Part shown: positions 15,005-60,546 of the stretch, in pieces
How positions within the stretch are numbered: the stretch's first letter is position 1
Layout of the letters: the number at the start of each line of letters is the position of its first letter
The notes under the pieces: model-generated
The model's input: the letters and a program-made list of their open reading frames with translations, nothing else
What the model was told of the DNA's origin: nothing
The model's database searches: none
Program-made: the position numbers and the translations under genes
NCBI RefSeq assembly: GCF_025024155.1
Contig: NW_026251786.1
Location: 103,647-167,646, forward strand
Reading direction: 5' to 3'
Source of the DNA: Gamsiella multidivaricata
Lineage: Eukaryota > Mortierellomycota > Mortierellomycetes > Mortierellales > Mortierellaceae
DNA length: 64,000 bases

Positions 15005-16373
15005 ATGACCAACACCACCGCACTTACCAACACCGTCGTCCCCGTCGAGAAGATCCAGGAGACTTTCAAGGACTATATTGGTAATAATCTCCTTCCATCT
15101 CCACCGTCATCTTCAGATGATCCATTGTATATCTCCAGTTACTAACAGTCTGTCCCCGGTCTCGCTTTCTCTCTTTATCGGCTTCAATTCCTCGATCCGT
15201 ACCACTGGTTATCACTCCCTATCCCGCCAACAACCTCCAACAACAACAACGACGACGACGACGACGACGACGCCGACAATCTTAACAAATGCTCAATGGT
15301 TGAACGGTTACTGGAATTCGCTGTGATCAGACCTCGCTGTCGCTACTCGCGGAGGCAAGGTCTTGACCTTCTCAGATGAATGGTTCGCCGATTGCAAGAA
15401 TCTCCTCACCGCCACCGCCCCCATTTCCGCCCCCGGTCGTTTCGTCCCTACCGGCGCCTGGTATGATGGATGGGAGACTCGCCGACACAACGCTCCTAAC
15501 TACGACTGGTGCGTCATCCAGCTCGGATATGCCGGTACCATCGCCGGCTTTGAAGTCGACACTTCCTACTTTACCGGCAACCACGCTCCCTTCGTCTCTG
15601 TCGAGGGCTACACAGAGTCTTCGCCTTCTAAGGCTGCAGTCCGCACACACGAGGAGTGGGCTGCTGTCAACTGGGTCCCTGTCCTTACTAAGGTCGCCCT
15701 CAACCCCAACTCGCGTCATGGCTTCAAGCTTGAGCAATCCACTGCCGCACACTATACCCATGTCCGCTTCTGTATGTACCCCGATGGAGGCGTTGCCCGT
15801 CTCCGCGTCTACGGAACCGTTCATCAAGTCCATCCCGAGAACAAGCACGAAATCTATGACTTGGCTTCCGCGGCCTCAGGATCGGTCATTACCGATCTTT
15901 CAGATGCCCACTACGGTCACCCCTCTAACATGCTCCTCCCTGGACGTGGCCACGACATGTCTGACGGCTGGGAGACTAAGCGCTCGCGTGCTCCCGGCCA
16001 TGTCGACCACTGCACCATCAAGTTGGGTCAACCTGGCCACGTTACCGACATTGAGGTCGATACTGCTCACTACATGGGCAACCCTCCCAAGGCCGTGACC
16101 ATCGCTGGATTTGAGATTGGTTCAGATACTCCCATTGTCCTCTTGGATCAGGCCCCCATGACTGCTCACCGTCAGCACTTCTTCAAGGTTGCCAACGACT
16201 TGACCGAGAAGCGCATTGCCAAGATCCAGGTCGTCATGATCCCAGACGGTGGCATCAAGCGTGTCCGTATCTGGGGTGCCGCTCAATTGCCTGCTATCGA
16301 GCCAGAGAACTCTTTGATCGGCGTCCGCCAGGAGCTTCCTGACGAGCACACCTGGAACCAGAAGAAGAACTAA
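15005..16373 (+). CDS. DAL2: Allantoicase (allantoate amidinohydrolase)
   Basis: Two exons, 15005-15080 and 15331-16373, 372 residues; the phase 1 join gives KDYIDLAVATRGGKV. The enzyme hydrolyses allantoate to ureidoglycolate and urea in purine degradation. The protein shows the internally duplicated beta-jellyroll layout of the family: two copies of a block with DGWETRRHN...CVIQLG...GFEVDTSYFTGNH (about 60-110) and DGWETKRSR...CTIKLG...IEVDTAHYMGN (about 235-285), each ending in a PDGG(V/I)xRxR(V/I)(Y/W)G motif. Length is normal for fungi. The 250-base intron carries an ACN/GAC triplet repeat. The substrate pathway links it to the NCS2 permease at 55125, although the two genes are not clustered. 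Confidence 0.95.
15236..15272. repeat. (CAA)n(CGA)n trinucleotide microsatellite in the allantoicase intron
   Basis: CAA units pass into seven to eight ACG units inside the 250-base intron, ending 58 bases before the acceptor at 15330. Confidence 0.85.
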
Positions 16374-20546: not shown

Positions 20547-23500
20547 TCACGGCCTCCACTGTCGCTGCTCCACACCTCGGACGGTGCCTGTGCTCGACGT
20601 GTCAGAGAGCATGCCCCCGCTGGCATCCTGAGTCTCGTTATCGGACATGGGCGTGTCTGCTCGTGCCGTGTAGGACGAGTCTGTCGTGATTTGGGTTGAC
20701 TTCGCCATGTTCATCGTGCCCATCGTGTCTGCCGCCTTGACACTGTCGACTGTCGCGTTGTATAAGATCCGATCCAGTTGCACTCCTCCACGGAACGACT
20801 CCTTGTCATCTTCCTCCTCCTCCTCCTCCTCCTCTTCTTCTTCTTCTTCTTCTTCTTCTTCCTCTTCAGTCTCATCGTCGTCATCATTGTCGCTCGACAT
20901 TACTCTGGGATCCTTGATTAGCAAAGGCGGGATACCCGTGGTAGGGTCCACAGAGAACGATCCCAGGCGGCTACGACCGCCTTCCCTGAGCTTCTCCTTT
21001 CTCTGCTCCTTTTGCGCCTTGCTCCGCTCCCGCCGCTCCTGTCTCTGCTTTTGCGAATGACGCCTGGCTGCACGGCTGGCATCCTGAGCCATGCTGACCA
21101 TCGTCATTCCGCCGCCTCCTCCACCGTGACATTTAAGGACACCTTCGCTGTCGCTCAGCACCAGTTCACCATGGTGTCTATTCCGCTGCCGAGGATGATG
21201 AGAATATGAGCCCTTCCTGTGTTTAGCACTGTCCAGTCTCATGTTCACCAGCTGCAGGTCATCCGCGCCTTTCATGCCTCCCTGAGAACCCTCTTCGCCG
21301 ACTCTGTCTTCTTCGCTAACCACCTCAGAATCATCCAGCCCCTCATCCTCTTCCTCTTCGTCTTCCTCATCCTCATCGTCCTCCTCCATAAAGTTGACTT
21401 GCTCCTGTGGCCACTTGTCGCTGCCAGGCATCACCTCTGGCGTCGCCGGAACTGACTCCCGTGCGCCTGTGGCCCTAGCCCCTGCCAAGACAGCCATACT
21501 TCGACGCCTGAGCATCTCGCGCTTCTTTTTCTGGATCAGTTTACGTTCGTGACTCAGCTTCTGTTCGCGCTCAGCATTGGCTCGATCATCCAGCCACCGC
21601 TCCAGGATCGTGCAGAGCTCCTCTTTCTTGATGGGCTTGGAGAGATATGCGTTCATTCCGCTAGCGATACATTTCTCCCTGTCTCCAGGCATTACACAGG
21701 CCGTCATCGCGATGATGAATGGTTCTGTCCCTGTAATACCCTCCACCGAGGCGCGAATCTCCCTCGTCGCCTCCAAACCGTCCTTGACTGGCATCCAGAC
21801 GTCAATAAAGATAATGTCGTACTGCTTCACCATTGACGATCCTGCGTTGAGATCACCGTTACCACCAGAATCACGAGCCCGCGCTACGGCTTCGGCACGA
21901 GCCTGGCACTTGTCCACGGCCTCCTGGCCATTGTTGGCAAGCTCCGGATGGATACCTATGCGGTTCAGCATTTTCGAAATAACTTTCTGGTTCACAGGAT
22001 TGTCGTCGACAAGCAGACACTGCAAGGACTCGAGCTGACGTTTGCGCTCATGTTCCTGAAGATCCAGGTCAGGTGCAGCAGAGGGTGCCAGTGGCCAGGA
22101 TCCTGTCATCAAGCCGTGGAACATGCTAAACAGCTTGGTCTGCTTGACGGGCTTGATCAGGTGCCCCACAGATGGGTCAGCATCGATACCCGAGGGATGC
22201 AGCGAAGGCGAAGACGGGGCCCCCTTCTCCGAGGAATTTGAAGAGTGCTCTTTAAGTGAGCTCCAAGTTTTGGCCGCTAGCATACTGCTGTTCAGGATGT
22301 TAGGCGTGCAGGTGGTCTTGGGATATACAGACGGGTTTTGTACCGATAGCGAATCCTTGGAGCGATTGCTCCGTAGACTGTCAGCCAGGCTTTCGCGGCT
22401 GGTGCTGGCGCTGATGATTGAGCTAAAAGCATCTTCCGCATGGGTCGTCGCAGTCGATACTGTGCTTGAAGGGTTGGCCTTTGATGGTCCGAACGTGGAA
22501 GGATGACTACGGCGATGGTACGAAACCAAGACACAGGGAACTGGCTTTTCCTGTCGCTTCTTCCCTTCTTCACTGTCAGAGTCATCATAAGGAATACTTC
22601 GCACTTGTTGAAGAACCACCAGGCCGGGGTTGGTCTTGGCCTGCGGTTTGTCGACATCAATCATGATCACGTCCACATGGTTAGGGTTCTGCCTCAGGTA
22701 ATCCAGACCCTTGGGAACGCTCAAGACGAGCACCTTTCGGAACCCCCACGTCGACGATTGATACAACCATGAAGTTCTGCTCACACGACGGTCGTCAAAG
22801 ATCAAGAGTGTCTTGTCACTGAAGAAGGCCAGGTTCAGTTGCTGGGCTACGGTCGAGCCCGGCTTGGGCGAATCTAAGAGCGTTGTAAAGTAGAATGTGG
22901 ATCCCACTCCTTCTTCAGACTCTGTCCACTAACAGTATAAATTGTAAAATACAAAATTCCGTTAGTATAGATGTCGATCGAACAATGAATGCTCTTCAAC
23001 TCCAATGCCCCCATATCATGCCTGTCTTACCATTTCACCGTCCATCAGCTCCACTAGTTTCTTGGAGATAGCCAGGCCAAGTCCCGTTCCACCAAAGTTT
23101 CGGGTGACAGAGTCGTCCGCCTGCGAGAAACTCTTGAAGAGACGATCCATTCGTTCAGCAGGGATACCGCAACCTTGGTCCGCGACAGACCAGAGGAGGT
23201 CCATTTGATGCTCTTGGGTGCGCTCATGATCTTTGAGAGGATCCTGGAATGAACTACGACCGGTGATCGTCATGGACTGGCGATGCTTGTTCCCCGACCG
23301 CGGAGCAATAGAAGGGCGGACCTGACCCACAACTGACTCTGACGACCCTTGGTCGACGTGGAGCATCAGCTGCGAAGATTCATGCTCAGTTTCGTCGGCT
23401 TCGTCGTCCTCATAAACTCTGGCACCTGATCCGGGAGCTGGCTTGGGTTTGGGCTCAAGTTTGACCACAATGTTTCCCTTCTCCGTAAACTTGATGGCGT

Positions 23501-26500
23501 TACTCAGTAAATTCAGCAGGATCTGGCGGATTCGAACAAGATCTCCCAGGACTTGCATAGGCGTATCAGGATGGAGTACAAACGTGAGACCGAGTCCCTT
23601 TGTGGCGGCTTGCATGGAAACAAGATTGCAAACGGATTCAAGCAGCCACGGAAGATTCAAAGGCTCGGGAGATAGCTTCAGTTTGCCGGAATCGATCTTG
23701 CTGAAATCGAGAATATCGTCAATGACGGCCATCAGCTGGTTTCCGCTCGACTCGATCGTTTCGGCGCAGTCCATCAAGTCCGGAGAGAGATCGGACTCGA
23801 GTAGGATACGCGACATGCCAATAACTGCGTTCATAGGCGTCCTAACATATTGTTTTGTCATTCGGAAGAAAAGGGCTTATGTCAATATATCATTTTATCA
23901 ATTTTCGGATCATTCATATTCCATGACACATATTCCATAACACATATTCCACAAAGAAGATAGTAAAAAAAAATAAAAAATAAGAAGCATACCTGATCTC
24001 ATGGGACATGTTGGCCAAAAAATTAGACTTTGCCCGGGCCGCATCCTCTGCGTGGTTTTTGGCTTTACTGAGATCCACCAAGAGCTCTTCCGTCCGAAGT
24101 CGCTCCTCTTCCAGTTCGGCAGTGCGTGTTTGAAGATGCATGGTCCTGGTCCGGACCAACTCCTCCATGTCGTTAGCATATTTTTCCAGTAGCGCTGCCA
24201 TGCCTCCAATCATATCGCCGTCTGGACTGATGAGTCTCAGACGATGCAAAATAGAAGCAAACGAAGGGCGCAGACAAGGATCAGGCTGGAGGCAGTTGTG
24301 GATTAAGTTGTTGATTGCATTGATACTCTCATCCGAACCGTCGTCCAGCAAAAGGTCCGGTCGCCAGTGGTTGTGCTTGATCCGGTCCAACAATGTGAAC
24401 GGACCCTCGACAGGGTCCAGCGCTGCCAGCTGTCGCACGTATGGCGCCTTGCGCGTCATGATCTCGTTAAAAACAATTCCCGCACTATAAACATCTCCAG
24501 CCTTGCTCGCAGTCTTGTAGAGGACAGAGTCCATATGAACCATGTTCTCGGGTGCAACCCATTGACCATCCTGGATCTCCTTGACAGTCCTTGCCGCTTG
24601 GTACGTTTTGCCTCCCATCTCAAAGTACTCCTCTCCAGGGGTGTTGTGAAAAGGAAGAGAGATGATAGAGCCGTTTGCATAACGACTGTCGCTGCTCATT
24701 CGCAACGAATTTCGCTGTGTGCTGTATGTTCCTTCTGCGGATCCACGAGAGGACCTTCCATTGCCGGGTTGTTGGGATTCGTACAGTTGCGTGAGTCCGT
24801 AGCCACCCACCTTGACCTCCCAGCGACTAGTTACGACACAGTTCGAGGATCGTAAGCCGCCGTGACACTGAATTTTGGACTGATGCAAAAACTCCATGCC
24901 TCGCGAGATATCGCTCATGAACGAGAGCTTGAACAGCCAATTGAAATTCAGGTCTGGATGTGCCAAGACCTCCGTCAGCGTCCCTTTGGAGCAGTGTTCA
25001 GTTACAATACAGATATCCGGGGGTTGAAGACACACACCCACCAGTTCGACCAGCTTCGGGTGTCGCAGCTCCATGACGTCCATGATCTCAATGCGCATCT
25101 TGCGCGTCAGATTGACCTTGGTTCCACCGATACGACGGACAAACACGGGTAGATTGCGGTACACTCCAATGGCTTTTCCAGAATCATCCATGGGTTGGAT
25201 CCCGGACATGCCTCCAACAAACGTGGAGTGGCTTCGTTGAAACATGCCGGTCGGTCGAGTAGCCCCTTTGCCGACTCCAATATGCTTGCTCGTATGCAGT
25301 CCTTGCTCTGCTATTGATCCAGAATCCTGAGTGCCGAGTCCGCTGTCGGAATCATGATATACGCCCATAATTCTCTTGTAGTCCAGCATCCAAGAGTCAT
25401 CTTGCAGGCGTGAACGGCGCTTTCGGGTGCGGAGGAAACAATAAACGAGCGAAGTTGCAACTGCGGCAAAGAGAACGAGTCCGAGCGGCAGAAATATCGC
25501 CAGGTTGATACTGTTATTTTTCTGCTTCATAGTAAAGTAGTCTCGACACTCCGGCGCGTTCTGCCCAGATTCATCACAGCTCATGCAGAAGGTAGATCCA
25601 GTCTGATTAGTGAACTTGCCGTTGGGGCAGATAGTGCAGTTGAGGCTGTTGTACTGGTCGCTGTAGTGTTGCACTGGGCATTTTTGACAATACGGTTGAG
25701 CAATATGCTTTCCAGAGGGGAGCCGACAAAGGAGCGATGATCTATCGACGTTTGAAAAATATTGGCCCATGTCGCAGACATAGCTGACCTCAGATGGTCC
25801 CGTAGAAATGAAGTTCCATGTCTTGTCCTGCATAACCGACGAGAATGCAAGCTCGAAGACAGCCATGAATCCGTTGAGATACGACTGCTGTGACCACACC
25901 CTACGGACCTTGCCCGACACATAATCTGTCAAAGATGTTGCCGATAGCCCTGTGGTCGTGACCATGACACTCGCGTTAATATCTCCCTTGGATGAGATAA
26001 GGTATTTGATGTTTTCGTAGAGCATGGTCGAAGTGGTGTGAATGCTGTCGTATTCGTAAACGCTATTGACTTCAGATATTTTCCTAGATGCTCCCGAAAG
26101 ATCACCAGGCGCCAAGCGCACGCAGTATGTCTCGAAAGGTGGAAGAGATCCTCGCATGGCCACCATCCTATCATAGAGCCCTCGGCACATGAGTAGCTGC
26201 TGCTCGGGCCCATCATTCTGAGCTACGCAGATCGGATGCTTGCCTCCGTTCTGTAAGATCACGTCCGCGTAATCGCTCCCAGCCTTGTATGCGTTTTCAC
26301 CAACCCACGAAAGGCTCTGATGATCAGTCCAGTTATATGGCGACCCGATGCCAACGATGGGAAACGGCAGGACTTGATTCAGAGTGTGGTTCCAGGGAGA
26401 CAAAGGATCACAACCCATGGCTGCAGCGGACGTATCATGCCTCAGGTCGTCGCATATTTGCTGGAGAGTCCTGTTTGTGGCTGCTGTCCGCGACTCGACC

Positions 26501-28984
26501 TGCTGCTGCGTCTTGTTCAACGCATAGTTGATGTAGGCACTTTGTGCGTTGCTCACAACCAAGCCCTGTATCTGTGGCTCGTTGAGCGTCTGGTTGATGC
26601 TGAGTTCGACAGTTTCCTGGCGAATTGGGCTGTCGAACCGGTACTCCGTCATGTTCCAGTTGAGGAATGTTGCTGCATCCCGTGCTCCTGTCGCCATTGC
26701 GTCCCAGTGCTCATTGATAGGTGAACTATATATATGCATTAGCGCCATATACAAACCGGAGGTTAGAGAATCAGATCCACAATATAATACAAGGAATGAG
26801 TAAAGAACATACAAGGTCTAAGAACTTGCCTGCCAGTGATGACACTGAAGTGCCGCGCGTAATTAACAAAGTTACTCATAGTCCACATCTCTTGCGCCAG
26901 CATGTCCTTTGCATTTGCGGACGTTACCAGCTTTGGTCCTGTCAAGATCTGATCCTGGGCAATCTTTTCGCCCAGATTGAGCTGTAAGATTGATCAAATT
27001 CGCTGTGATTAGATGCATGTCTTGATTGCTGAAGAATAAGCAACCATTGCGTTCAAACAAGAGGCATTTCATACCTGGACATAGAGAAGCAAGATAGGAA
27101 TCAGGGTCTGGAGATACAGCAGGCTGGAGATGGAGTAATGGAGGACGCCCCGCTCGAACGCTTGCGCCATGTCCTTGTTAAAGTCAAAAGCAGCAACCTT
27201 GTATGAACGCGTGTTGTTGAGGGCGAGCATCAGCGAGGGGCTCAACCCTGAGTACATTGGGGCGGTAAGAAAGACAATTCCTGTAACTGCATTCTGTTTA
27301 AGGACGACTTCTGCGACGCTCTGAGCATTTGTAGACGTGGTACTGTTGCGCGACTTTTCGACATAGATGACATGGTCCGTCAGGTTGGCAGAGACTTTGG
27401 CATCGGCATCTAGAAAAGCCTGCAGGACACCATTGCAACGATCGAGCAGCGTGGGTATCCTGCTGGGGCCATCGATGCAGACAAAGTCCTTGACACCTAG
27501 AGCAATAGCAAGTAGAGATTAGAAATAGGGAGCTTCAAGTCGGAACGGATTTGCAAATACACCAGCTCATGGGCTGACACGGATTTCAAGGGTTTCAATT
27601 TTTTTGCACATACGCATCTTAAATATGCGTTTGTGAAATTTTCGTTACACGCCTGCCCTCGGGCTGGCGTATTTCTGTCATACGCATTTAGAAATACGCA
27701 TCAAAATTACTGAGTTTGAATCCCCCTGATAATGCGCGTACAAAAACCCCCCATAACTGAAACCCCCTAATGGCTCCATGCTCGTATTTCGAAGATCAAG
27801 AACAAGTGATTTACTCACCATCCTTAAGCAGCTCTTCTCCAATAAGCTTTCCGGACATGTACTATCATAGGCATGGAGGGAGCAGAAGAGGCATTTTTTT
27901 TATAAGTACGCGTGCCAATTGCTCATCACTTTCTGTTTTTTAACATATCCTCAGCCTATACCACGTTTCTTTATTTCTTCGGGATCAAAGACTTACATCG
28001 TCGGACATGACAGCGAGGATACCCAGGTCTTTGGCAGCCTGCAACCCTGAGTAGACAGCAATGATGGGGATGTTCTTATCCTTGGCTGCCTGAATGGGTG
28101 CCTTGAGGACATCATAGTCAGGGATAGAGACAATGAGGGCATCAATGGGGTTTTTAATCGCATCGTAGATGGAGGAACTCATGCGCTGTACGTCATAATC
28201 GACCCCCGAAAGCACGTCTGTAAGGGTCAGGGGAATGTACAATTTCGCATCGAGCTTAGCGTCATCACCGATGAGGGCCGTTGCTGAAAGAAGAAAAGGA
28301 GAAAAGGAAAATCAAGCGGAGGGTCGGAACAGCGCAGTGTAATGCATGGGAGAGGGAGAAGGATACAGATTTAAGTATATGTAGTGGGCGGGTTGTTATT
28401 AATACATTGACCAATAAGAGTTTCAAAGTAAAAGAAAACCTACCATGGGTGATAAGCGAGATGCGGTAGGAGGGTGGACTGTCGACGCAAGCAGGCGAGT
28501 CAATATGATAGTCGGAGAGGGTGGTGACACCCTGTACGGTTGAGGGCGTGTTCGTGGGCACTGGGGGGGATGAGGGGGAGGGGATGACAACTAAGGTCGA
28601 GGTGATAATCCCAGGTTGGGGGCTCAAGGAAGGTGGTTGCTGGGCGAGCGTGGGGGCAATTGAGAGGGAAATTAGATAGAAAAGGGCGATGAAGAAGTAG
28701 TGGAAGTGTCTATGTCCTCCGTAGAATAGTCGTTTGCGTCGTTGGTGATATTTTTTGCATTGTTGATGGTATTGACGGGGTCGTGATTCTTGTTCTTGTT
28801 CTTGTTCTTGTGGAGAGGGTGTGGGGTAACTGCGCGATGGAGTGTGAGATGGAGTGTGAGATGGAATGTGATCATGAGAAGAGAAGGGGAGGCCAAGGGG
28901 AGGGCGGGGCGGGGGCAGCTGGCGGAGCGCAGTGGACTGGAGGCGGGAAGAGGAGGATGCCGCTGCAGAGCATGGTCCCCTCAT
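20547..28984 (-). CDS. Receptor hybrid histidine kinase: tandem PBP1 - TM - guanylyl-cyclase-type kinase homology domain - HisKA - HATPase - receiver
   Basis: Eight exons (28984-28444, 28283-27997, 27861-27819, 27496-27075, 26981-26830, 26725-23993, 23841-23031, 22928-20547), all in phase, 2456 residues. Order: long N-tail with a hydrophobic signal segment (about 92-115). Two sugar-binding PBP1 modules follow (about 185-480 with DALIVSIPDYDVLKAPIQAA; about 482-800 with GKHPICVAQNDGPEQQ). A Cys-rich stalk (about 830-875) and one TM helix (about 884-908) come next. A kinase homology domain (about 1000-1315) carries ICIVTEHCSKGTL, HGGLRSSNCVV and VGGYGL, so the catalytic HRD and DFG aspartates are gone. 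After it comes the coiled coil EKYANDMEELV...LEEERLRTEELL. HisKA has NMSHEIRTPMNAVIG (phospho-His about 1388). HATPase has N, G1 and G2 boxes (LSNAIKF, DQGCGIP, GGTGLGLA). A degenerate receiver-like segment (about 1699-1812) precedes a full receiver (about 1963-2113, Asp in IFIDVWMPVKDG). The acidic tail has a long Glu run. The intron 26829-26726 is GC-AG. It is likely a plasma-membrane sensor feeding a phosphorelay. Confidence 0.88.
27585..27775. repeat. Fold-back, MITE-like element inside an intron of the receptor kinase gene
   Basis: Within the 322-base intron 27818-27497 the sequence is close to an imperfect palindrome. The ends carry GGGTTTCA and its complement TGAAACCC. The centre is the near-perfect palindrome ACGCCTGCCCTCGGGCTGGC (27649 onward, ending GT at 27670). 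ATACGCAT/ATGCGT motifs recur on both sides. No open reading frame lies inside. It resembles a non-autonomous fold-back or MITE insertion; no target-site duplication was identified with certainty. Confidence 0.55.
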
Positions 28985-37822: not shown

Positions 37823-39566
37823 ATGAAGAACCCATTCCAACTTAAGGAGGCCGAGACCGAGACCCCGGCCATCTACGCAAATGAGCCAGCGAAGCAGCGC
37901 GGCAAGGTTGCGACCGCTGCCCTCAGCGTCCTGGCGCCGTTCGTGTATGTCTTCGGCCTCCTGCGCAGGTATACAAACCTGACTGTCTGGATCATCATCA
38001 GTATGATTGTCGGTATTATCGTCGGCAAATTTGCACCCGACTTTGCTGTCCAGATCGAGCCCATGGGACGTCTCTTCGTCCGCATGATTCAGACCGTGGT
38101 GGTACGTGCTTCGCTGAAACAGCAAAACAACAAACATAGCATAACGGAGCTGTGCTGTTTGTGGATCGTTAAAACGCCCATGTGGATTTTTTTTTTTTGG
38201 GCCGCAATCCACCACAACTAATATGTAAAACTACATTTTTCGGAAATAACAGGGTCCTCTGATTTTCTCAACATTGGTTGTCGGTATTGCTGGACATGGA
38301 GATGATTTGATCAGAATCGGCCGCCTAGCCGTCAAGTCCATCGTCTATTTCGAGGTCGTCACTACCTTTGCGCTCATCATCGGTCTTCTCTCCGTCAACA
38401 TTGCCAAGCCCGGCAAGGGCTTCAGCATGGATGGTCTCGTTGCGCCCACAGGCGATAACAAGCCCATCACTTGGGTCGATGAGATGGAGAAAATCGTCCC
38501 CCAGTCCTTCTTTGCCGCCATGTCTGACCACGCCGCCGTTTTGGCCATCGTCTTCTGTGCCGTCATGTTCTCTGTCGCAATCATGAGAGCCGACGCAAAG
38601 TCCAAGAAAGTCATGCTAGACTTCAACGCCTCGCTGTCCGCCATCATGTTCAAGGTTGTGGAACTCGTCATGAACTATGCCCCCATCGGTATCGGATGCG
38701 CCATTGCTGCCACGGTTGGAAAGTATGGTCTTGGTGCCTTAGCTGCTGCAGGGAAGCTGGTCGGAACCCTTTATGTTACCCTGATCATCTTTGCGCTGAT
38801 AATCATCTTGCCCGTCGTCGTCATCTGCCGCCTCCCTCTCAAGGACTATGCCAAAGCTGTCGGCCAGCCTTTCATCATGGCCTTTGCTACCGCCTCGTCT
38901 GAGTCTGCGCTTCCCAAGGCCATGGAGAACATGGTCGCCTTCGGTTGCCCTCCCGAGATTGTCGCCTTTGTGATCCCCACCGGATACTCCTTCAACTTGG
39001 ATGGATCGACTCTTTATTTAGCTCTTGCCTCAATCTTCTGTGCCCAGGTTGCCGGCATTGACAAGTCTGTGGGCGAGCAGATCGTTATCATGATTACCCT
39101 CATGCTGAGCTCCAAGGGTGTTGCTGCCGTCCCACGTGCCTCGTTCATCGTCTTGACCTCGACTCTTACGAACGCCAACATCCCTCTGGCTCCCCTGGCT
39201 CTGATTATGGGTGTCGATGCCTTCATGGATATGGCCCGTACTTCGATCAACGTGCTCGGCAACATGACCGCTTGCGCCGTGGTTTCGCGCTGGGAGGGTG
39301 AGTTCCGCAACGATGCCTGGCACGCCCGTCAGGCCGGTCAGACTCCCGAGACCCTTGCCATGGACGAAGTTGAATCCGAGGAGTACAACCCTGATCACCA
39401 TCACGTACATGGCTCGGCTGCACACGGCAACCATCCTCGCATGGGTGGCCTGCACGCTGAAAAGGCTTCAATCCGCTCTGTCCATTCGACCTCCTCGGCA
39501 GTCGAGGCTTACAACGGCTCCAACACGCAGCAGCGCCATCACACCCAGGGTGATAACATTGTATAA
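37823..39566 (+). CDS. Dicarboxylate/amino acid:cation symporter (DAACS, GltP/DctA-like)
   Basis: Two exons, 37823-38101 and 38253-39566, phase 0 join, 530 residues. Secondary transporter of the SLC1/DAACS fold that takes up glutamate, aspartate or C4-dicarboxylates with protons or sodium. Conserved features: the Ser-rich hairpin FATASSESALPKAM (about 307), GYSFNLDGSTLYLALASIF (about 336, the NMDGT region, here NLDGS), the second hairpin SSKGVAAVPRASFIVL (about 380), and DAFMDMARTSINVLGN (about 415, substrate-coordinating Asp, Arg, Thr, Asn). About eight TM helices are visible. A cytosolic His-rich C-tail of about 90 residues (HHHVHGSAAHGNH) is added. The FNLDGS and MARTSINVLGN forms are closer to bacterial GltP/DctA than to animal EAATs (impression only). 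Confidence 0.93.
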
Positions 39567-42902: not shown

Positions 42903-45900
42903 TTACTTCCGGCCAAAAAGACCGCGTTTCTGTTTGGCGCCCTCGAGCGAAGGTTCGAACTCAAGAGCAAGATGCAACCTTCCGCCTGATCCGCTCAATG
43001 GTCCCCAAAAGTCTGCCCTGTACTCGCCTGGATGGGCATCCGTGCTGGGCTGGATGTACTCCCACAGACGCAGCTCAAACTCGCCCAGGTCCTTGTCGCT
43101 TCCGATCGTGTTGTGGTCGCGGACCATGAAGTTGATCGTCACTGGGTGTCCCGTCAGATTGGGAACCACCATAGACTCGCTCCAGTTGGGCGACAGGTTC
43201 TCCTTCTTGACCTTAGTCTTAAACAGGGACTTGCCGCCGATCGACACTCTGACATAGGGGTCACTGGTGCCGCTCTTGTCCACACCCAAGAGGCCGTCAG
43301 CCTCAACCACATGAATCGTTAGGTTGCCGGGTTCACCAACAATATCTCCGCTTTCAAGACCCATGGATGTATGCGACCGGACCGATCCAACACTTGTGCG
43401 GGGAACAGAAGACGAGACGACATTCAACGAAGTCTCTGAGTTTGAAGGACGGACTGTAGCCTGACTATTGATATCTGACGACTGAGGCATCATAGCTGTT
43501 GTCATTTCAGGCGCAGGCGCAGGTGCAGGTGCGAGTGTAGGTGCGAGTGCAGGCACAGGTGCAGGCGCAGGTGGAAGCGAATCCAGCGATGCTCGCGAAT
43601 CCGACTTATCCTTGCGAAGTCCAAGGGCCGAGGCTCCTGCGGAGATGCCACCAAAGACACCCTTGCCAACAGTACCAACGCCCTTTCCAACAGTGCCCAC
43701 GCCCTTCAGAGCGCCCTTGCCGACTGCACCGCCAACATCTAAGGCTCCCTGTCCGACTGCTCCAACACCGTCTGCCATGAAACCCACACCACCAGTAACG
43801 ACTCCCACACCAGCCATGCCGGCCTGACCCACTCCTCCAATAAAAGTCGAAGCAAATCCTGCCTTCTTACTTGCCGACAAGAACTCGGGCATGAACTTGA
43901 TACGCAACTGGACTTCTCCCTGGTTGTGCTTGTTCCGCAAAGATACCAGGAAGTCATTAGGCAAAACGAGCTGAATGTTGCGCAGATTCAGAGAGCCAAC
44001 ACCAAGTGACTTGGCTGTCGAGAGCTGGTTCCAGTCAAAGACCTCGAATGTAAACTGGTCGTCAACACGAGACGACTAGAGAAGAAAAGGGACGGAAGGT
44101 CATCAGTGGTCATCACCCAATACGAGAAGAGCGATGCGGATACGGTGGGCAGTGATGATACTTACAATTGGCACGACAAAGGACTCGTTGTACTCAGGAT
44201 TCAGGGTTTTCTTGACCACCTCGGACTTGTAGACCTCTTTGCCATTCACCTTGAACACAAGATATGGGTCACTAGCGCCGCCTCGATCAGCGGCAATCAG
44301 ATTCTTTGCACGCACAAGGTTCACGGTCAAGTTGCCCATGTCTACCGGACGTCAATTGTAAAGAACAGAATAGAAATCAGTATACGGACAACGTAGGAAA
44401 CAAGTGCGCACACACGAGCCGAATGCAAAACAATAACAATACGTACTATCGAGACGCTCCTTGGGCAAGAGCTCGATGTTCACAGGGAGGTATTCAAATT
44501 TCAAGTGCAAAGATCCGCGCTGGTCATGCTTGTCCACAATTGGGAAGCTTGCCCCGTCGGCCGGGGTGGTCTCGAGAAGCGTGCGGATGTGCTGCGTAAA
44601 GACGCCAACAACAGGGTCCTTATCCACTGACGACTTCTCTTTAACTACAATAATGAGCTTGGCATACTCGAGTTCCTTGACGAAAATGTCTGCAACTTCG
44701 TTCCACTTGGGGTTGCGAGACTTTTGCAGCTGAGACTTGAATTGATAGCTATCGCTGTCGATATAGAACTCGCAGTAGGTGCCTGAGCGGTCCAGCTGAG
44801 CACCGATCAGGTGCGTGACCAGAATACCAGAATCATAATCCAAGGCTTCCTGTGCGGGAATAGTTCCTGGCGGCAAAGTGACCGCAGCAGCCTCGGTGGG
44901 GGCCCTGATAGAATTCTCTAGATTGCTAGGCGATGGATCCACGGTTTCAACAGTCTCGATCTTCTCGGCAGGGACAGCTGCAGTGGATTTCTCGGCCTCC
45001 GTGGCTTCCTGGGCAAGCTTGAGAGAAGGATAGAATGAGAGCTCATAATGAAGCTCACCTTTGGTGCTGCCATCCTTCTGCTTCAATGGAGCCCATCTAT
45101 CGATAGCCGGACGAGCAACATATCCTGCCTTGTCCGGAAGCTCCTCAACCAGCTCTGCCACAGCAAATTCGGTCCTGCCCAATGTCCTGTCCTTCGTGAC
45201 CTTTTGGAAGTCGAAGCATTCAAACTCGAACGTCTGCTTCATGGAGTTGACAGCAACGTAGAAGATTTCGTTCCACACAGGGTTCAAGTTGCTGTCGATG
45301 ACCTTGGTGCGCCCACGGCTTATACCCTTGTCCCCGGTGATGACGACGTAAGGGTCTGAATTGCCTCCGATCTCGACATTGCGAAGTTCTCGCGCACCAA
45401 GCATCTGGATACGAATCACTCCAAATGCAGGCTTGTGGGCGGAAGGATTCATGTCGTCGCTCATCAGGATGGGCTTCCAGACACCATTTATCTTCAGCTT
45501 GCTAATACCCTCACCGCCCTGGAGGTTAACCCAGTCAACCTTGTCGGTAGTATCCTTAATCAGCTTCTTGGCAGAGACACCATAGGAGCCAATGACGTGG
45601 CTGTCGGAAATAACCTCGACGGTAAGTTGAGCGGCCTCAAGGTCGGTGACAAAGACGTCGAGATCTGCGCCCCAGGCGGGGCTGGCTCCGCTCATGCTCT
45701 TGGTAGTATGGACCACCTTTCCGTTCAGATAGACCTCGCAGTGCGACTTTGTCTTGCCGGAGCGAGCAATGTCCTTGGCCTGCGCAAGATTAATTGCCAA
45801 AATACCAGAGTTGGACTCGACTGGGATCATCGTGGTACCATCTGCAGAAGGTTGAGGGACCTGGACAGGGAAATAGGCAGCACGGACACGAACCGCTCCA

Positions 45901-48266
45901 CGCTCCTTGCCGTTGCGAAGCACTTTGCACCAGACGTCGTCCTGAATAGGGTCCTCCTCCAGTGATTTCAAGTCAAAGTTGGCCTGACCCAATGGGCGAT
46001 CCTTGCGAACATTATCCTTGTCAAAGAGCTCCATACAGACGACCTCGTTCAAGTTGTTGACTAAAATGGTGTTGGTCTCGTTCCAGACAGGGTTCAGGCT
46101 ATTATTCAGAGAAAAGTTTGCAGCACGTCGTTGTCAGCAAGACGCGTGAGACTAAGAACTTGCCTTTATCCATATCCATGACCGTAATCATCGCATGGAG
46201 CAATAAAACTTACGTGTCCTCCTTCACAGCGGTAGTGGCCAGCTCAGGACGGTTACCGAGGCGAATCTTGCAATAGGGATCCGAGTTTCCAACCAGCTCG
46301 GTATTCTTGAGGTCCTTGGCATTGTAGATCGTGAACTGCACCACACCAGCTGCGGCAGTTAGGGATGCGCCACCAGTCATCATCTGCTCCAAATCAAGCG
46401 TGTAGACGTTGGGAGCGTACATCATAGGTCCCAGGATCGCATGGGTCTGATCACGGATAAAGGATTGCAATCCTGGGATCTATTTTTGGTGCATTAGCAT
46501 AGTAATATGGCTCAACGTTAGACAGCGTAATAATCCGACTGTTTTGGGATAAGAACAGAAGCGAGCGAGATGATAAAGAGAGCACTTACATTCATGATAT
46601 CCATTCCAAAAGTCTCTCCGCCAACAGGCTTGAGAACATAATCGATCTCTGGGGGTTCAAGGAAGCAGAAATCAACGGTCTTGACATGGGGGAAATTCGA
46701 CATCAACTTAAGTTTGAAGCGCATGTGTCCCTTGAAGGACATGTCCTCCACAAGAATGGGAATGCCAGCACCGATGATGCCCTTGCCGACACGGATAGTC
46801 AGGCAGATCTTTGGGTTGATCTGGGTACGCAACTGTCTGGGAGTCATGTCCTCGATATCCGTGGGCGTGAACGACACACGCCAGTCCATCAACTACAGTT
46901 AAAAAAAAACGTTCAAAAGGAACCGTAGCGAGTAAGCGTATGATACAGTGAAACTTTAATCCCACAGGCGAGAATGGACTGCTCCATGAAACCGCAGAAA
47001 AAATTATTGACATAAAAGAGCGCAGGTCCAATGAACCAAATGTTATGGAGCCAAGGAATAAAAATAACCCTACCACCACATCTGGGTCAGTCTTGGGGAA
47101 TGCCTTAACACTCTCGACGCGAGGAGCCTTGGTTCCCAGAGTGAAGGTGGTTAGTCGGATGGAATCGAGAAAGGCGGGCGTCTGGTCGACCAGGATGCCG
47201 TCGACAGTCTGTACGACCGTCGAGCTGAGAACGGGCTCGTAGATCAACCAGAACTTGGACATGAAGTTATTGATCCACTCGGTCGTCTCAACATCATTCT
47301 CAAGCTATCCATGAGCACAGCGGGGATGAATTAGACAGGCAAACATACAGACAAGCAGAAAGAATGCTATTCAACACGCTAAGATCAAAAATAGACATAC
47401 CGCGTTCTTGATCAACTCGCGAGTGATATCGTCTCTTGCGTTGCGACGGAAGCGACGGATTGAGTTCTTATAATACGTAGCTAGTAGGAGTGAGAGCGTG
47501 AGAGCATGAATAGCGAATAAGTCAGGCAGAGTTCAGTCTGAACATGCTGTACGCTTTGACAGCGCGTTCCTCCCCCCTTTCTGCTGTTGCATTGCAGCAG
47601 AATACTATATAGTCCATCCACCCTATCGCAGCCGGCGAAATACTCCATAGGGCACTTACCACCAAAGGCAATGATTAGAACCAAGGACACAAAACCGCCT
47701 CCAAGTTTGAAGACAGCGAAGCAAACGACCGGAATCACAAAGAGGGCGGCGGCATTGTGCCAGAAGGCGCCAAACAGAGCACTGCTCGCAAACTCCTCCA
47801 TCCAAATGGACTTGTCACGAAACTCGTTAGTGGGACCATCAGTGCGCTTGTATGCCTCGATCCAGCCGATTCGTGTCACGGTTGGGAAGGCTCCAGGGAT
47901 GCGGTTCTTGAGGTCTTCGACAACACTGGGCTTGACTGCAGCATCCTTTTCAGGACTTCCGTCTCCAGTTGCGACCGTGGGAGCCTTTTCAGTTTTGTCA
48001 GATGATGGTGCACTGGGCTGATCTCCATTGATAGCTTCGGCCCTTTTGGCGTCAAGCTTTTCTGTGGTTGGCAAGTCTACGGGACGGATGTCGGAGGGAA
48101 TAACTGTGCCACCGATGGCCTTACCGACGGCCTCATTCAAGCGGGCCTGTCCCGGGATTTGAGGCGAAGGGAAATCGTCGTCGGCTCGTGGAGGGGCGAT
48201 ATCCAGGCCATTAATCGTCTCCGGCCCAGGGACGGTCTGACCAGTGGGCTGTTGAGTGGGATCCAT
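42903..48266 (-). CDS. Tricalbin / extended synaptotagmin-like protein with SMP domain and six C2 domains
   Basis: Eight exons, 48266-47660, 47480-47401, 47304-47074, 46892-46590, 46479-46214, 46098-44447, 44341-44166 and 44075-42903, in phase, about 1495 residues. ER-plasma membrane tether that moves lipids at contact sites. Residues 1-150 are a disordered cytosolic tail; a hydrophobic hairpin (about 160-205) anchors the protein in the ER. The SMP lipid-transfer domain spans about 225-440 (ETTEWINNFMSKFWLIYEPV, LMDWRVSFTP, PGLQSFIRD). Six C2 domains start near 450, 590, 720, 917, 1047 and 1353. Four (1, 3, 5 and 6) keep a SDPY calcium-loop motif; the second and fourth (HCEVYLNG, TYCEFYIDS) lack it and are probably calcium-independent. 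A Gly/Val-rich segment (about 1188-1258) lies between the fifth and sixth, next to an Ala-Pro repeat. Confidence 0.93.
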
Positions 48267-55124: not shown

Positions 55125-57068
55125 ATGCCTGAAATCACACAAGAGCCCGGGGCCACATCTCCACCGGTCTTCATCCTCGATCCCCATGCCAATCGCACGC
55201 GGGAAGAGGACATCGACCTCTCGCACACCGTCGGCAAGGTCCCGAGCTGGCAGGCCATCCAGCAGTCAATTGGCACCCGTTCTGGTTGGTTCGGTGATTA
55301 CGACTACGGCTTTCTCTGTACACCTACTCTTCCTGGGTTCACGGTTACTCGCATCCCTCCCTTCTTTGGCCTCAAGGACAGGCTCCCACTTATACTCGCC
55401 ATTATCATGGGTAAGTAGAGAGCTATCCATGTCTTGTTCCCCTTTTACTCACTTAATGCCTGGCTTGTCAACCCCTTTTAATGGTTCTCACTCACTTCAC
55501 TTGTAGGCTTCCAGCATGCATTAGCCATGATTGCCGGTGTGGTGACCCCTGCCATCATCATGTCTGGCACCGGTAGCAACGGCCTCAACTTTCCCCCGGC
55601 AATGCGCACCCAGATGGTCTCCACTTCTATGATCACATCTGGTCTGCTCTCCCTCGTTCAGATCACTCGCTTCAGGCTCGCAAAGTCCCAATACTTCCTC
55701 GGAACTGGATTGCTCTCTGTGGTCGGCACCAGTTTCATTTTCTTGCCTGTACTCCAGAGCTCTGTTTCCAACATGTACGCCTCTGGTTTCTGTGAGAGTT
55801 CCCTTGACCCATCTGGCACCCGTGTATATGCCTCCTGTCCACAGGCCTGGGGTGCCTTCCTCGGAACCTGCATGGTCTGCAGTCTTTTGCCCATCCTCCT
55901 TTCATTCGTTCCTCCCCGTGTACTCAAGAAGGTCTTCCCCCCCATCGTCACCGGTGTCACAGTCATGCTTATTGGAGTCCATCTGGTTACATCTGGCATG
56001 GCTCAATGGGGAGGCGGAAGCGGACCTTGCCGCTCTCAACCCACTTCTGGTCCCTTCGTCAACTGCCCAAGCAACAGCGCCCCACGGTCAGCACCATGGG
56101 GCGATGCGCAATGGATCGGTCTCGGATTCTTGGTCTTCTCAGTCATTATGCTTGTCGAGTTCTTTGGATCACCCTTCATGAAGAACGCCCAGGTGGTGAT
56201 CGGTCTTGTTGTCGGAATGGTTGTTGCCGTTGCTTGCGGATACACGGACTCGTCCTCGGTCGACGCCTCGCCCGTGGTTACCTTCTTGTGGACCAAGACC
56301 TACCCACTCTCGATTTACCCACCAGCCATCATTCCCTTATTAATCACATATACCCTCGCCATAGTCGAGAGTATCGGAGACATCACCGCCTCGTGCGAGG
56401 TTTCTCATCTATCGGTCGAGGGTCGCGAGTTCGAGTCGCGTCTTCAGGGCGGTATCTTGGCTGATGGTATCGCCGGTATCCTCGCACCTCTATGCATGAA
56501 CTCGCCCATGAGCTGCTACGCCCAAAACAACGGCATCATCTCGCTCACACGCTGCGCCAACACCATGGCTGGATACATGTGTTGCTTCTTCCTCATCCTC
56601 ATGGGCGTCTTCTCTAAGTTTGGAGCCCTGTTCCTCATGGTACCTGATTCCGTTCTTGGAGGCATGACCACCTTCCTCTTTTCCAGCGTCGTGGTCTCTG
56701 GTATTCGTATCTTGTCTTTCTTGCCCTGGACCCGCCGTGAGCGTTTCATTGTTGCGACGGCCTTGACTCTCGGCATGGGCACATCCTTGGTTCCTGGTGT
56801 CTTGACCCACATGTTCCACTACACCGGTACCAATGCCTTTGTGATCTCTTTGATCAGCACTGCCAACATTGTGCTCGATACCGGCTTTGCCCTCGGTGCT
56901 ATCGTCAGCTGCCTCCTGAATGCGCTCTTGCCCGCTAACCCACCCATGGCTGCGGAGCCCATCATTGATCGCCATGGCCCCACTCCCTCCGACAAGGAGA
57001 TTACGGAGATGCAGGTCGAGGCCCAGTCAATCCACGAGAGCATGCTCAATGGTAAACACCACCACTAA
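55125..57068 (+). CDS. NCS2/NAT-family xanthine/uric acid permease (UapA-like)
   Basis: Two exons, 55125-55410 and 55507-57068, phase 1 join, about 615 residues. Proton-coupled purine transporter of the plasma membrane. The Gln-His pair of TM1 is present (GFQHALAMIAGVV, about 97), then ESIGDITAS (about 384) and the nucleobase-transporter motif QNNGIISLTR (about 435), which matches the NAT consensus and fits a urate/xanthine-type substrate profile. Twelve or more hydrophobic helices are visible; both ends are cytosolic. The C-tail has acidic and His residues, as in fungal UapA/UapC where it directs trafficking. Substrate choice among urate, xanthine or both is an inference. It is linked to allantoicase by pathway. 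Confidence 0.95.
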
Positions 57069-57182: not shown

Positions 57183-59010
57183 TTATTTTGGATCGGGAAC
57201 TGTGGTTAGATTGGGTTTGGAGACATACATTATACATTTCCCATCTGCGTTGCATTCAAGGCGTCTCTTCAGCTCAGGGCTCTCCGCCAATTCCGTCCAA
57301 AACGGCGTGCAGCTCAAGTGCAGTGCCATATTATTGATCTGAGGGTTGCATGGACAGCGATCAGGGCAATACGCGATCGAGCCATAGCTCCAGCCGAGAT
57401 GTTCCAGGAAGAGGGTATCAGACCGAGGCGCGAGGAGTCCCAATCCAATAGTGGTAACGGCCGCGTCGCTCCATTTGTGATAATAAATGGGACCCTGCCG
57501 ATCGACATATTCAAAGTACGCTTGATATGCTGGCGAGCGGAAGAAGTTGACCCGCGCAATGGAGGTTTCAACGCCGTAGGTGCATGCAGTGCTAGAGGAG
57601 GGTATGTTGGTGGATGCGATTAATCTGATGTTCTAGAATTGCAAAAGAACAGAATTGTCTTCAGGCTTGGACCCTTACAATGCGTCGCCGGCTTCTCTGA
57701 CCAGGAATGCTTCGTCCCTGCTATCTGGAATGAGCTCTGGGTGTGTCGACTTGAATCTCTCAATCAGAGACAACGCTCCAGGGACACTTGCCTCATTGAC
57801 GGTCGACAACAGTGACCAGGCTATGCCAGTACGAGGATGATGTTAATGAACCGCATAACATGTACAGAACAGGAAATTTTACATATGGATATCTGGACTC
57901 ACCGAACTTTTGCCCCGAGCTCTTCAGCATCAGCATAGGATCCTCCTCAACGTCACACAAGATGCACACGCCTGGATCGACTCTCCAAAAGAACTCGTAC
58001 TGGTCCAGTAATTTGTGCTGCGCCAGGAATCCACTCATGTATCGCCACCTATGCCGCTCCAGTAACGAAGTTTTGTTCATCCCCAGTCGCATCTTAGCAT
58101 AGTCCCCGTTCCGAACCATGGCAGCTTCAATCCATTTGGGAAGCCGCCACTGCTCGTGCGGGATCGTACCAAAGGTCGTGGTGCCCTTTGTGAGTTGGCT
58201 AATCAAATTCCGAGACCGTGTTGTCAGCGGAAGAGGCGTGAGAACGATCCATGGGTAGTTGCGGTCCCTGTTGAAGCGATCTTCGATTTGGCGGACTGTC
58301 TCTCGAGCTTTCTGGAGCTCGTCTTCGTGCGTAAGGATAACGAAGACTCCGTTGGCCCTTTTGACTTGGAGGGCTGAATCACCTCCGGTCGTGTCGCTGC
58401 TTGTTGGATCCTGGTCAGTGCTCATTGACAGATGTTCCATATCGTTGTTTTTATGGCCTGCTGCATTGTCTCCCCGATCCGGTGTTTTCGGATATTCAAA
58501 TAGTAAACCGATATCCGGACCTTCAAACTCCTCCAAAGGCTGTTGATAATTCCATTGATGATCTCCGAATGCTTTCTGTTGAGGGAGCTGCTCTCCTGTC
58601 TGCTCTTTTGGGTCACCCAGTAGTACTTGGTCGCGCTCCGTCTGGCTGTCGATATCTCCTTTACTTTCTTCACTGGCTCTATTGTTATCCTGGGTACCAA
58701 TAGCCATGTCACCTTCGAGACCATGACCTTCCACTTCGTTTAGTAAACCATGCGGAGATAAAAACAAGGCACCTTGCTGATGCGAACTAGATGACGATGC
58801 TGTTGACCGCGCATATTCAACCAGAACATGCTCAGTAGAGTGCACATTGTCGAGCACAATTGCTGTTGGGTCTATGCCTGGTCGTGTGGCGGTTGGCTCG
58901 AAGTTCTGTGGCAAAAGTGTGATTATGAACAGGTATCCAAGTTCCCAGGTTGTAGTAAAGGTGACGATGACGCGGATGAGTCTGGCGTTTCGGTTGGGCG
59001 CCTGAATCAT
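57183..59010 (-). CDS. Divergent glycosyltransferase family 15 (KTR/KRE2-like) protein
   Basis: Three exons, 59010-57903, 57820-57679 and 57624-57183, in phase, 563 residues. Type II Golgi topology: a short tail, a TM segment (about 15-33) and a long disordered stem (to about 205). The GT15 domain follows (RANGVFVILTHEDELQKAR, FNRDRNYPWIVL, then a Trp-Arg-Val metal/donor segment, FFRSPAYQAYFEYVDRQG, and YYHKWSDAAVTTIGLGLL). Active enzymes of the family add alpha-1,2-mannose to O- and N-glycans. Here key parts differ: the donor/metal segment is WRVDPGV instead of WRxEPDV, and the YNxCHFWSNFEI block reads CTYGVETSI (about 431-439), so the expected nucleophile Glu is Ser. It may be inactive or have a changed activity. 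Confidence 0.85.
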
Positions 59011-60546
59011 CTCGGACAGATTGTCTCGTGCTCCTCTTCTTGATGCTACACTTTCTGGCGAGATGCGAGTGTTGCTGGTTGTACTGTGTTGAAGGAAAAG
59101 AGTAGAATGTTAGGTGGGCTGGAATGCTTGGTGGAAGCAGGGGGCTATTGAGTTATGCCGTGTCCGGAAAGGAGAAATATAATACATCCCTTTTTGGTGG
59201 CGCGAAAAGGGACACGACTTCATCGGTCTCCAGAGCATCTCCTTCGACGCCATGGTTGGCAAGCAGCTCTACGACTTTCATCTCGCTCATTAAGCCATGT
59301 TCCATTTAATGCCTCATTGAAAGCATCCTTTATCACCAAGTCGAGGGTGGCCATTATATCGGCAACCGAAACGCCCGGACGTCCAACGCAACATCTGTGG
59401 CTATCCTGTGGAGGGGCTTTGGTGGGCAAACTGATCCTGATAGTGGTTTTCCACACTAAAGGAAGCCCCCTGCCTGGGCTGCTTGGCGAACTGGCAAGTT
59501 GATATACGCTTACCGGTACTTCTGAGTCTGATGTCCATACTTGGGCATGATGCTCGGCAGTAGAGCACAAATACGGCGGCCAACAGGTCCTCCTTCCTGT
59601 GCACCTTCTATTCTACACAAAACCTACCCTACCATGATTCTCTACGCTACAATATTCCAATTCTTCTGATGCTTAATCGAAATACTCCCACTCATCCTCG
59701 TCTCAATCGTCTTTCCTATTCAAACTATCCACTATCTATTCTTTAAGCGATCTACTCGTCCACCTCTACCTCATGAGCCATTGTAGCCTACGGTGCGTTT
59801 CCATGGTCTGTGTCATTACCGGCTCAAACACGGCTAGGAATCATAGCCGGTCAGGTCTGTGAGAATATCTGGACTTGACAAGGATTTGCACCGGTTCTCT
59901 TCCAGCTGCAGGGCTATACGATCAAGAACAGAGCCACGCTTCGAGCCTTCTTTCCAGCGGAGGGGACAAGTGCAAGAATAATGACACAACATATGCCGCA
60001 ACAAGAGCAAGAGTATGAGTATTTAAATAAAGATGTTCTTATACAGAATACGTTTTGGTTACTCCTTGCAATGCAAAGCAGCCCAAGGGCCAAAGTAATC
60101 GCATGGCGTAGTTAGATAACCGAGCCCGCAACTCCATGAAATTTTGGTGGCAAAGCCAATTTGGTCTGCTGTAATTTATTTGGGTTTGTTGCGGAGAACC
60201 AAGGGTGTTTGAGGCCCCAGACGCCATAGCAAGGTGGTTTCTCTGGTGCCAAAGGCACCGCTCCACATTACTGAGGAAAGGACGTTGCGTCGCTTGGTGT
60301 ACTTGACTTGTTCAGTAGGGCAGTCACCCGTTCCAACTGACTTGGTTGAACCTTCGTCCTAGTCGTTTCTCGTAGCTCGTACAGCATGGCGCGTCCGCCA
60401 ACCAGAACGCGAAAAGCTTTCACGTGAGGGTTCTTTTTTCGAGAAACATCTTCAGGACCAACCAACTTTGCTTCAAAAAGGCCGAAGACTTCGCTGCCAC
60501 ACTTGCCACCAGCAACGAATCCACCATCACCACTACCATCACTGCC
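59011..60546. other. Intergenic region between GT15-like and cyclophilin genes
   Basis: About 1.5 kb. A weak frame on the minus strand (59570-59220, 116 codons) and frames at 60266-60039 and 60465-60268 lack domains. A short inverted repeat CGGCTA...TAGCCG lies at about 59831-59849. In-frame sequence from 60424 may extend the cyclophilin. Confidence 0.45.

Follow-up and report, generated by a model that had tools for sequence, protein, structure and literature searches.

Can the transducer of an animal receptor guanylyl cyclase (RGC) serve an output other than a cyclase? This question is raised by a gene on the reverse strand of a 64,000-nucleotide stretch of the Gamsiella multidivaricata genome (contig NW_026251786.1; hereafter the window, to which positions refer unless another contig is named), whose predicted product carries an RGC-type pseudokinase and signalling helix, followed by a complete histidine kinase and a receiver. 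An initial annotation of the window had described a receptor guanylyl cyclase-like front end fused to a hybrid histidine kinase. Our analysis makes it probable that the gene encodes a membrane receptor belonging to the hybrid histidine kinases and equipped with an RGC-homologous transducer, in which the pseudokinases gate the output through the helix.

Several comparisons place the pseudokinase and helix with the RGCs. In a search of PDB sequences, GC-A scored 142 bits (E 1.5e-40) and GC-C 99, with the best other kinase, CTR1, at 56; a profile without the helix gave 187, 136 and 107 bits, respectively. Among the best 7985 candidates of a profile search, the first rows beyond the fungal family were RGC proteins (144, 136 and 133 bits), followed by CTR1-like kinases (108 and 107 bits); with the helix excluded, the pseudokinase is nearer to RGCs than to other kinases in profile searches, the kind of comparison that the initial annotation had named as a possible refutation. 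The signalling helix carries the YAN..EELV..RT motif of the RGC dimerisation/signalling helix, as seen in profile searches and shuffling: the three top rows of a helix-only profile were GC-A at E 0.001, with the next row at 0.35, and the signalling helix matched that of GC-A better than did 200,000 of 200,000 shuffles. RGCs were found by the helix profile only, the helix as a single-sequence query retrieving none. When the pseudokinase and helix of an RGC (P0155) were searched reciprocally against the G. multidivaricata assembly (37.5 Mb, 180 contigs), this gene came first with 109.6 bits, ahead of an interrupted copy at 97.2 bits and other kinases from 61.5 bits downwards.

Phylogenetic trees group the fungal and RGC rows against other kinases with supports of 100/98 (44 rows) and 98/95 (39 rows). 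The former used 9 of 15 other-kinase rows, leaving out P0157 (too long), P0089 (too short), P0098 (no match), L017, L019 and L020; the latter sought single domains, and because its pairing rule kept 4 of 14 other-kinase rows it is smaller, not simply better. The trees do not decide whether the fungal rows nest inside the RGCs: the 44-row tree gave 81/22, and RGCs as one clade obtained an approximately unbiased (AU) p of 0.459 in the 39-row tree. Comparison of structures with kinases, likewise suggested by the annotation, does not separate the two groups, the fold rankings being nearly tied and favouring neither RGCs nor others. The sequence searches, profiles, trees and reciprocal search together bear out the annotated RGC type of the pseudokinase and helix, and on this sequence evidence we take the intracellular transducer and its counterpart in animal receptor guanylyl cyclases to be homologues.

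The architecture is not confined to one gene. We assembled a family set of this gene and 122 proteins among the matches listed (P0001-P0086, P0115-P0135 and P0138-P0152), leaving out P0087-P0114, which are 28 rows of bacterial type, as well as P0136-P0137 and P0153-P0161, which fall outside the family, and called architectures by sequence match to the parts of this gene. A pseudokinase followed by a histidine kinase was found in 117 of 123 rows and the full order of five parts in 74; five rows lack a histidine-kinase match, presumably being short or partial models, and one has the histidine kinase before the pseudokinase, with odd orders partly reflecting weak secondary matches. The closest relatives, from Mortierella and related genera, are 61-71% identical over residues 480-1400 (best 30 rows). 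By their source names, we take the named family rows to be Mortierellomycota and Mucorales, so that the search for the same architecture, which the annotation had envisaged more widely, succeeded there in at least 117 rows. None was seen beyond these groups among the matches listed (best 7988, best 7985 and 6883 candidates), a negative made weak by the prefiltering on words and by how many candidates were covered.

As the initial annotation had proposed, a complete HisKA-HATPase-receiver module follows directly after the helix, both in the Pfam scan and in the family rows, and it does so at a fixed distance. The helix Tyr (Tyr1331) and the phospho-accepting His (His1390) lie 59 residues apart in 111 of the 113 rows measured, the remainder of the 123 being nine rows without the His motif and P0041, missed by the search pattern. 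The two deviating rows are P0013, whose spacing of 73 adds 14 residues, exactly two heptads, and so offers a natural test of coiled-coil phase, and P0083, whose spacing of 76 includes a stretch resembling an unspliced intron. By analogy with other signalling helices, the fixed spacing fits a parallel coiled coil with a phase that matters.

The two kinase folds differ in what they have kept. R1012, G1105 and G1123 occupy the positions of the catalytic Lys (VAIK), Asp (HRD) and Asp (DFG), with HGGLRSSNCVV replacing the HRD loop and VGGYGL the DFG. Across the 101 of 108 pseudokinase rows with a full match (seven partial rows were left out), 61 have Arg and 37 have Lys at the Lys position, 50 keep the HRD Asp, and at the DFG Asp position 77 have Gly and 12 still have Asp, which leaves 89 without it. 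By contrast, the HisKA with its phospho-accepting His, the HATPase N and G boxes and the Asp, Thr and Lys of the C-terminal receiver are all present. Among rows of the 123 with a full match, His1390, D1614, G1616, G1618, F1628, F1631, G1644 and G1646 are invariant (105 of 105) and N1507 is kept in 103, the other two having gaps; in the receiver, D1971, D1972, T2072 and K2094 occur in 97 of 97 aligned rows and D2039 in 96, with one gap. Because the pseudokinase residues have decayed and those of the histidine kinase are conserved, what appears to be retained is, in the first kinase fold, the fold itself and, in the second, an enzyme.

Outside the membrane the likeness to RGCs ends. Ectodomain 1 matches the bacterial CUT2 sugar-binding protein 4ru1 in sequence, ectodomain 2 has a predicted fold like that of 4ru1, and the Pfam scan gave Peripla_BP_4 instead of ANF_receptor. 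Alignment with three RGC ectodomains reached an hhalign probability of 0.2% with a thin three-row profile, which lends no support to homology with animal RGC ectodomains. Judged by these matches, the extracellular part consists of bacterial-type sugar-binding domains in tandem, unlike that of the animal receptor; and because no relation to the three RGC ectodomains compared was detected, the annotated guanylyl cyclase-like front end holds inside the cell only. In the Cys-rich stalk, Cys columns are conserved across 18 rows, and Ephrin_rec_like (827-865) is borderline, scoring 21.4 bits in the full protein, where the cut-off is 23.1, and 23.2 bits in the exon.

The annotated coordinates proved exact, the reading frame running from an ATG at 28984 to a stop ending at 20547 with no internal stops. 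In this model, built from splice sites in the DNA letters alone, six of the seven introns have GT-AG ends, and intron 5 (26829-26726) has GC-AG. All cited motifs were found, namely ICIVTEHCSKGTL (residue 1053), HGGLRSSNCVV (1103), VGGYGL (1121) and HEIRTP (1390), together with the helix motifs EKYANDMEELVRTRT (1329) and LEEERLRTEELL (1353); their order needs one correction, as ICIVTEHCSKGTL precedes HGGLRSSNCVV rather than following it. The Pfam scan gave Peripla_BP_4 at 207-433, PK_Tyr_Ser-Thr in two stretches (best, 1020-1133), HisKA, HATPase_c and Response_reg (best stretch, 2031-2105). Exon 6 alone encodes ectodomain 2, the membrane helix, the pseudokinase, the signalling helix and His1390. 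Since pseudokinase, helix and His1390 lie in one exon, their joint is no artefact of the gene model, and the exon 6-7 junction is less critical than had been supposed.

Table 1. Features of the receptor gene and its Pfam-assigned neighbours in the window.
Feature	Residues	Position	Strand	Basis or remark
Whole gene, 8 exons	2,456 aa	20547..28984	-	Splice sites and open frame; architecture common to relatives
Exons		28984-28444, 28283-27997, 27861-27819, 27496-27075, 26981-26830, 26725-23993, 23841-23031, 22928-20547	-	
Hydrophobic stretch, probable signal sequence or anchor	96-114	28643..28699	-	Hydropathy
Ectodomain 1, sugar-binding-protein-like	172-480	26835..28471	-	Exons 1-5; Peripla_BP_4 5.6e-20; 4ru1 61 bits
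Ectodomain 2, same fold as ectodomain 1	483-800	25771..26724	-	
Cys-rich stalk, 9 Cys	799-875	25546..25776	-	Borderline Ephrin_rec_like; Cys positions
Membrane helix	891-909	25444..25500	-	Strongest hydrophobic 19-mer of the protein
RGC-type pseudokinase	1001-1322	24205..25170	-	Sequence, profile and tree evidence
Signalling helix	1316-1374	24049..24225	-	Helix-only profile, predicted model, spacing
HisKA (DHp)	1380-1445	23685..24033	-	His1390 codon 24003-24001; split by intron 6 (23992-23842)
HATPase_c region	1446-1679	22881..23684	-	Low-complexity insert; split by intron 7 (23030-22929)
Receiver	1960-2107	21597..22040	-	D1971, D1972, phospho-acceptor D2039, T2072, K2094
Allantoicase		15327-16370		Pfam
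Dicarboxylate symporter		38250-39563		Pfam
Tricalbin-like C2 protein		42906-46133		Pfam
Xanthine/uracil-type permease		55482-57065		Pfam
Mannosyltransferase		57796-59109		Pfam

None of the five neighbouring genes assigned by Pfam has an evident link to the receptor. Elsewhere in the assembly, a second copy lies on contig C90, with its pseudokinase in pieces at 353224-354794, HisKA at 354972 and a receiver at 357861; its intron after HEIR has the same place and phase as in this gene. A third, at C103:114007-115030 (L012, L013 and L022, the region extending to 115575), contains internal stop codons and a receiver piece at 115351, gave no HisKA match and looks like a decaying paralogue. The assembly has two class III cyclase matches, each adjoining a PP2C-like frame (Pfam-confirmed for L010, by eye for L009), which we take to be Cyr1-like adenylyl cyclases. 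Both being like fungal adenylyl cyclases, there is no sign of a guanylyl cyclase in the assembly, and on these matches we reject a fungal receptor cyclase in this genome. Phosphorelay parts are present, as there are 14 HisKA, two Hpt and 20 receiver matches (17 over the cut-off). With the histidine-kinase half as query, the 28 bacterial-type rows scored 147-397 bits and other kinases of this genome at most 167, a comparison biased by the choice of the bacterial-type rows for their likeness and by introns splitting several of the genome's own kinases; the highest bacterial-type score, P0107, counts two kinase cores. Another histidine kinase of this genome, L008 (C136:106816-106971), has an intron right after HEIR, matching intron 6 in location, which may point to where the histidine-kinase half came from or mark a favoured insertion site.

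In the mechanism that we propose, control would run inwards from the ligand. A ligand, probably small and carbohydrate-like, would close the tandem binding domains of a putative dimer, and the change would travel via the Cys-rich stalk and membrane helix to the paired pseudokinases. Acting as a gate, not as enzymes, these would rotate or free the parallel signalling helix, which sets the cyclase in animal receptors and here would continue unbroken towards the dimerisation helix of the histidine kinase; the structure model predicts residues 1318-1374 as one helix. The HATPase domain would then phosphorylate His1390, from which phosphate could pass to Asp2039, to a phosphotransfer (Hpt) protein and on to response regulators as likely partners.

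The pseudokinase might instead serve as a platform on which partners such as Hsp90-Cdc37 dock or assist folding, and not as a gate of the histidine kinase. The solution of the GC-C structure in complex with Hsp90 and Cdc37 (PMC10400071) speaks for such a role, yet the fixed spacing and the unbroken predicted helix towards His1390 fit mechanical coupling, alongside which docking would be possible; we consider a platform alone unlikely. We give still less weight to the idea that the pseudokinase is a decayed relative of ordinary tyrosine-kinase-like (TKL) kinases whose RGC likeness is convergent, as the sequence search and the profile search without the helix show wide score gaps in favour of RGCs, both trees (100/98 and 98/95) separate the fungal and RGC rows from other kinases, and the adjacent helix bears an RGC motif as well.

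A kinase domain that is still active would make the protein a dual Ser/Thr/Tyr and histidine kinase, and the 50 family rows with an HRD-position Asp and the 37 with the Lys could be cited in its favour; in this protein, however, all three catalytic positions are replaced and the DFG Asp is missing from 89 of 101 rows, which makes activity highly improbable. Least credible of all is a wrongly merged gene model, in which adjoining genes for a receptor pseudokinase and for a histidine kinase were taken as one. The joining across intron 6 does depend on the reading of splice sites, but exon 6 stays open in a single frame all the way from ectodomain 2, past the pseudokinase, to MSHEIR with His1390, the parts are joined in the same way in 117 of 123 family rows, and the C90 copy shares the intron. 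The receptor hybrid histidine kinase gated by its pseudokinases is the reading that we prefer.

The initial annotation knew of no described protein with this order. Our search of the open-access literature likewise did not find the architecture described, whereas in databases at least 117 of the 123 family sequences have it, under names such as hypothetical, histidine kinase, 'RGC/RGC protein kinase' and 'guanylate cyclase'. P0121, P0019, P0125, P0083 and P0150 bear such names, including 'Receptor-type guanylate cyclase gcy-13', with no cyclase among their listed Pfam domains, revealing misleading labels. A separate observation concerns P0136, a protist protein of 1,100 residues from EukProt, in which a kinase domain and a guanylyl cyclase are combined with an ectodomain of phosphonate-binding-like type. 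In the 44-row tree its kinase groups with other kinases and not with RGCs, so that the protein may represent a receptor-kinase-cyclase fusion of separate origin.

A 2017 survey of early fungi that covers Mortierella elongata mentions unprecedented membrane histidine kinases, and the protein may already be drawn there (PMC5285503). Other papers report RGC kinases as undetected in Phytophthora and believed metazoan-specific (PMC3019232), 30 fungal proteomes as being without RGC (PMC2838846), and 72 genomes as showing no fungal receptor-kinase architecture, hybrid histidine kinases being the only group to resemble one (PMC6733946); PMC8778642 calls fungal guanylate cyclases undescribed, yet reports that matches to their family abound in Glomeromycotina. 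The finding of an RGC transducer in a family conserved among fungi alters the picture of RGC kinases as metazoan-specific. The modular exchange of outputs proposed in the initial annotation is a fair inference, but its direction and date do not follow, given the AU p of 0.459 for RGCs as one clade. We put even chances on the RGC pseudokinase and helix being an old module, either inherited by fungi and animals from their common ancestor or passed a single time between the two, with outputs and ligand domains swapped and the fungal family switched by sugar-like ligands. If so, the module would not be an animal invention, but one to which animals joined a cyclase as output and Mucoromycotan fungi a phosphorelay. 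How the RGC pseudokinase exerts control is an open question in natriuretic-peptide receptor biology, and the fungal family is a natural experiment on how it controls a downstream output; Mucoromycota, for their part, gain a candidate nutrient or partner receptor.

Set beside animal RGCs (GC-A/NPR1 and GC-C), the protein is alike in its RGC-type pseudokinase, in the YAN-type helix directly before the output and in the membrane helix in front. It differs in its output, a histidine kinase and receiver, with HisKA after the helix and no guanylyl cyclase catalytic domain among its Pfam families, and in an ectodomain of the sugar-binding type instead of ANF_receptor. With bacterial CUT2 sugar-binding proteins (4ru1) it shares the sequence of ectodomain 1 and the predicted fold of ectodomain 2, but here the domains are in tandem and built into a eukaryotic receptor. 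Fungal group X hybrid histidine kinases have a Ser/Thr-kinase-related domain before the histidine kinase, with GAF in between, as well as AAA-type domains, and are not known to have a receptor ectodomain; the Pfam scan of our protein gave no GAF, and AAA-bearing metagenome kinases fail the pseudokinase profile (P0089, 8.3 bits; P0098, which also has GAF, no match). A Ser/Thr-kinase-related domain before a histidine kinase also appears in a figure legend of PMC4965123 that does not name the group. Fungal membrane hybrid histidine kinases of the Sln1 type have in common with this protein the HisKA-HATPase-receiver and its conserved residues but, unlike it, no pseudokinase between membrane and helix. 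Sln1 itself belongs to group VI. According to PMC1592074, a signalling helix precedes its histidine kinase too, a parallel coiled coil with a defined phase is proposed for the helices of Sln1 and the receptor cyclases, and such a helix follows a kinase domain in animal RGCs only. We rate the G. multidivaricata protein as a hybrid histidine kinase by membership that, to judge from its sequence, probably works in the manner of a receptor guanylyl cyclase but drives a different output.

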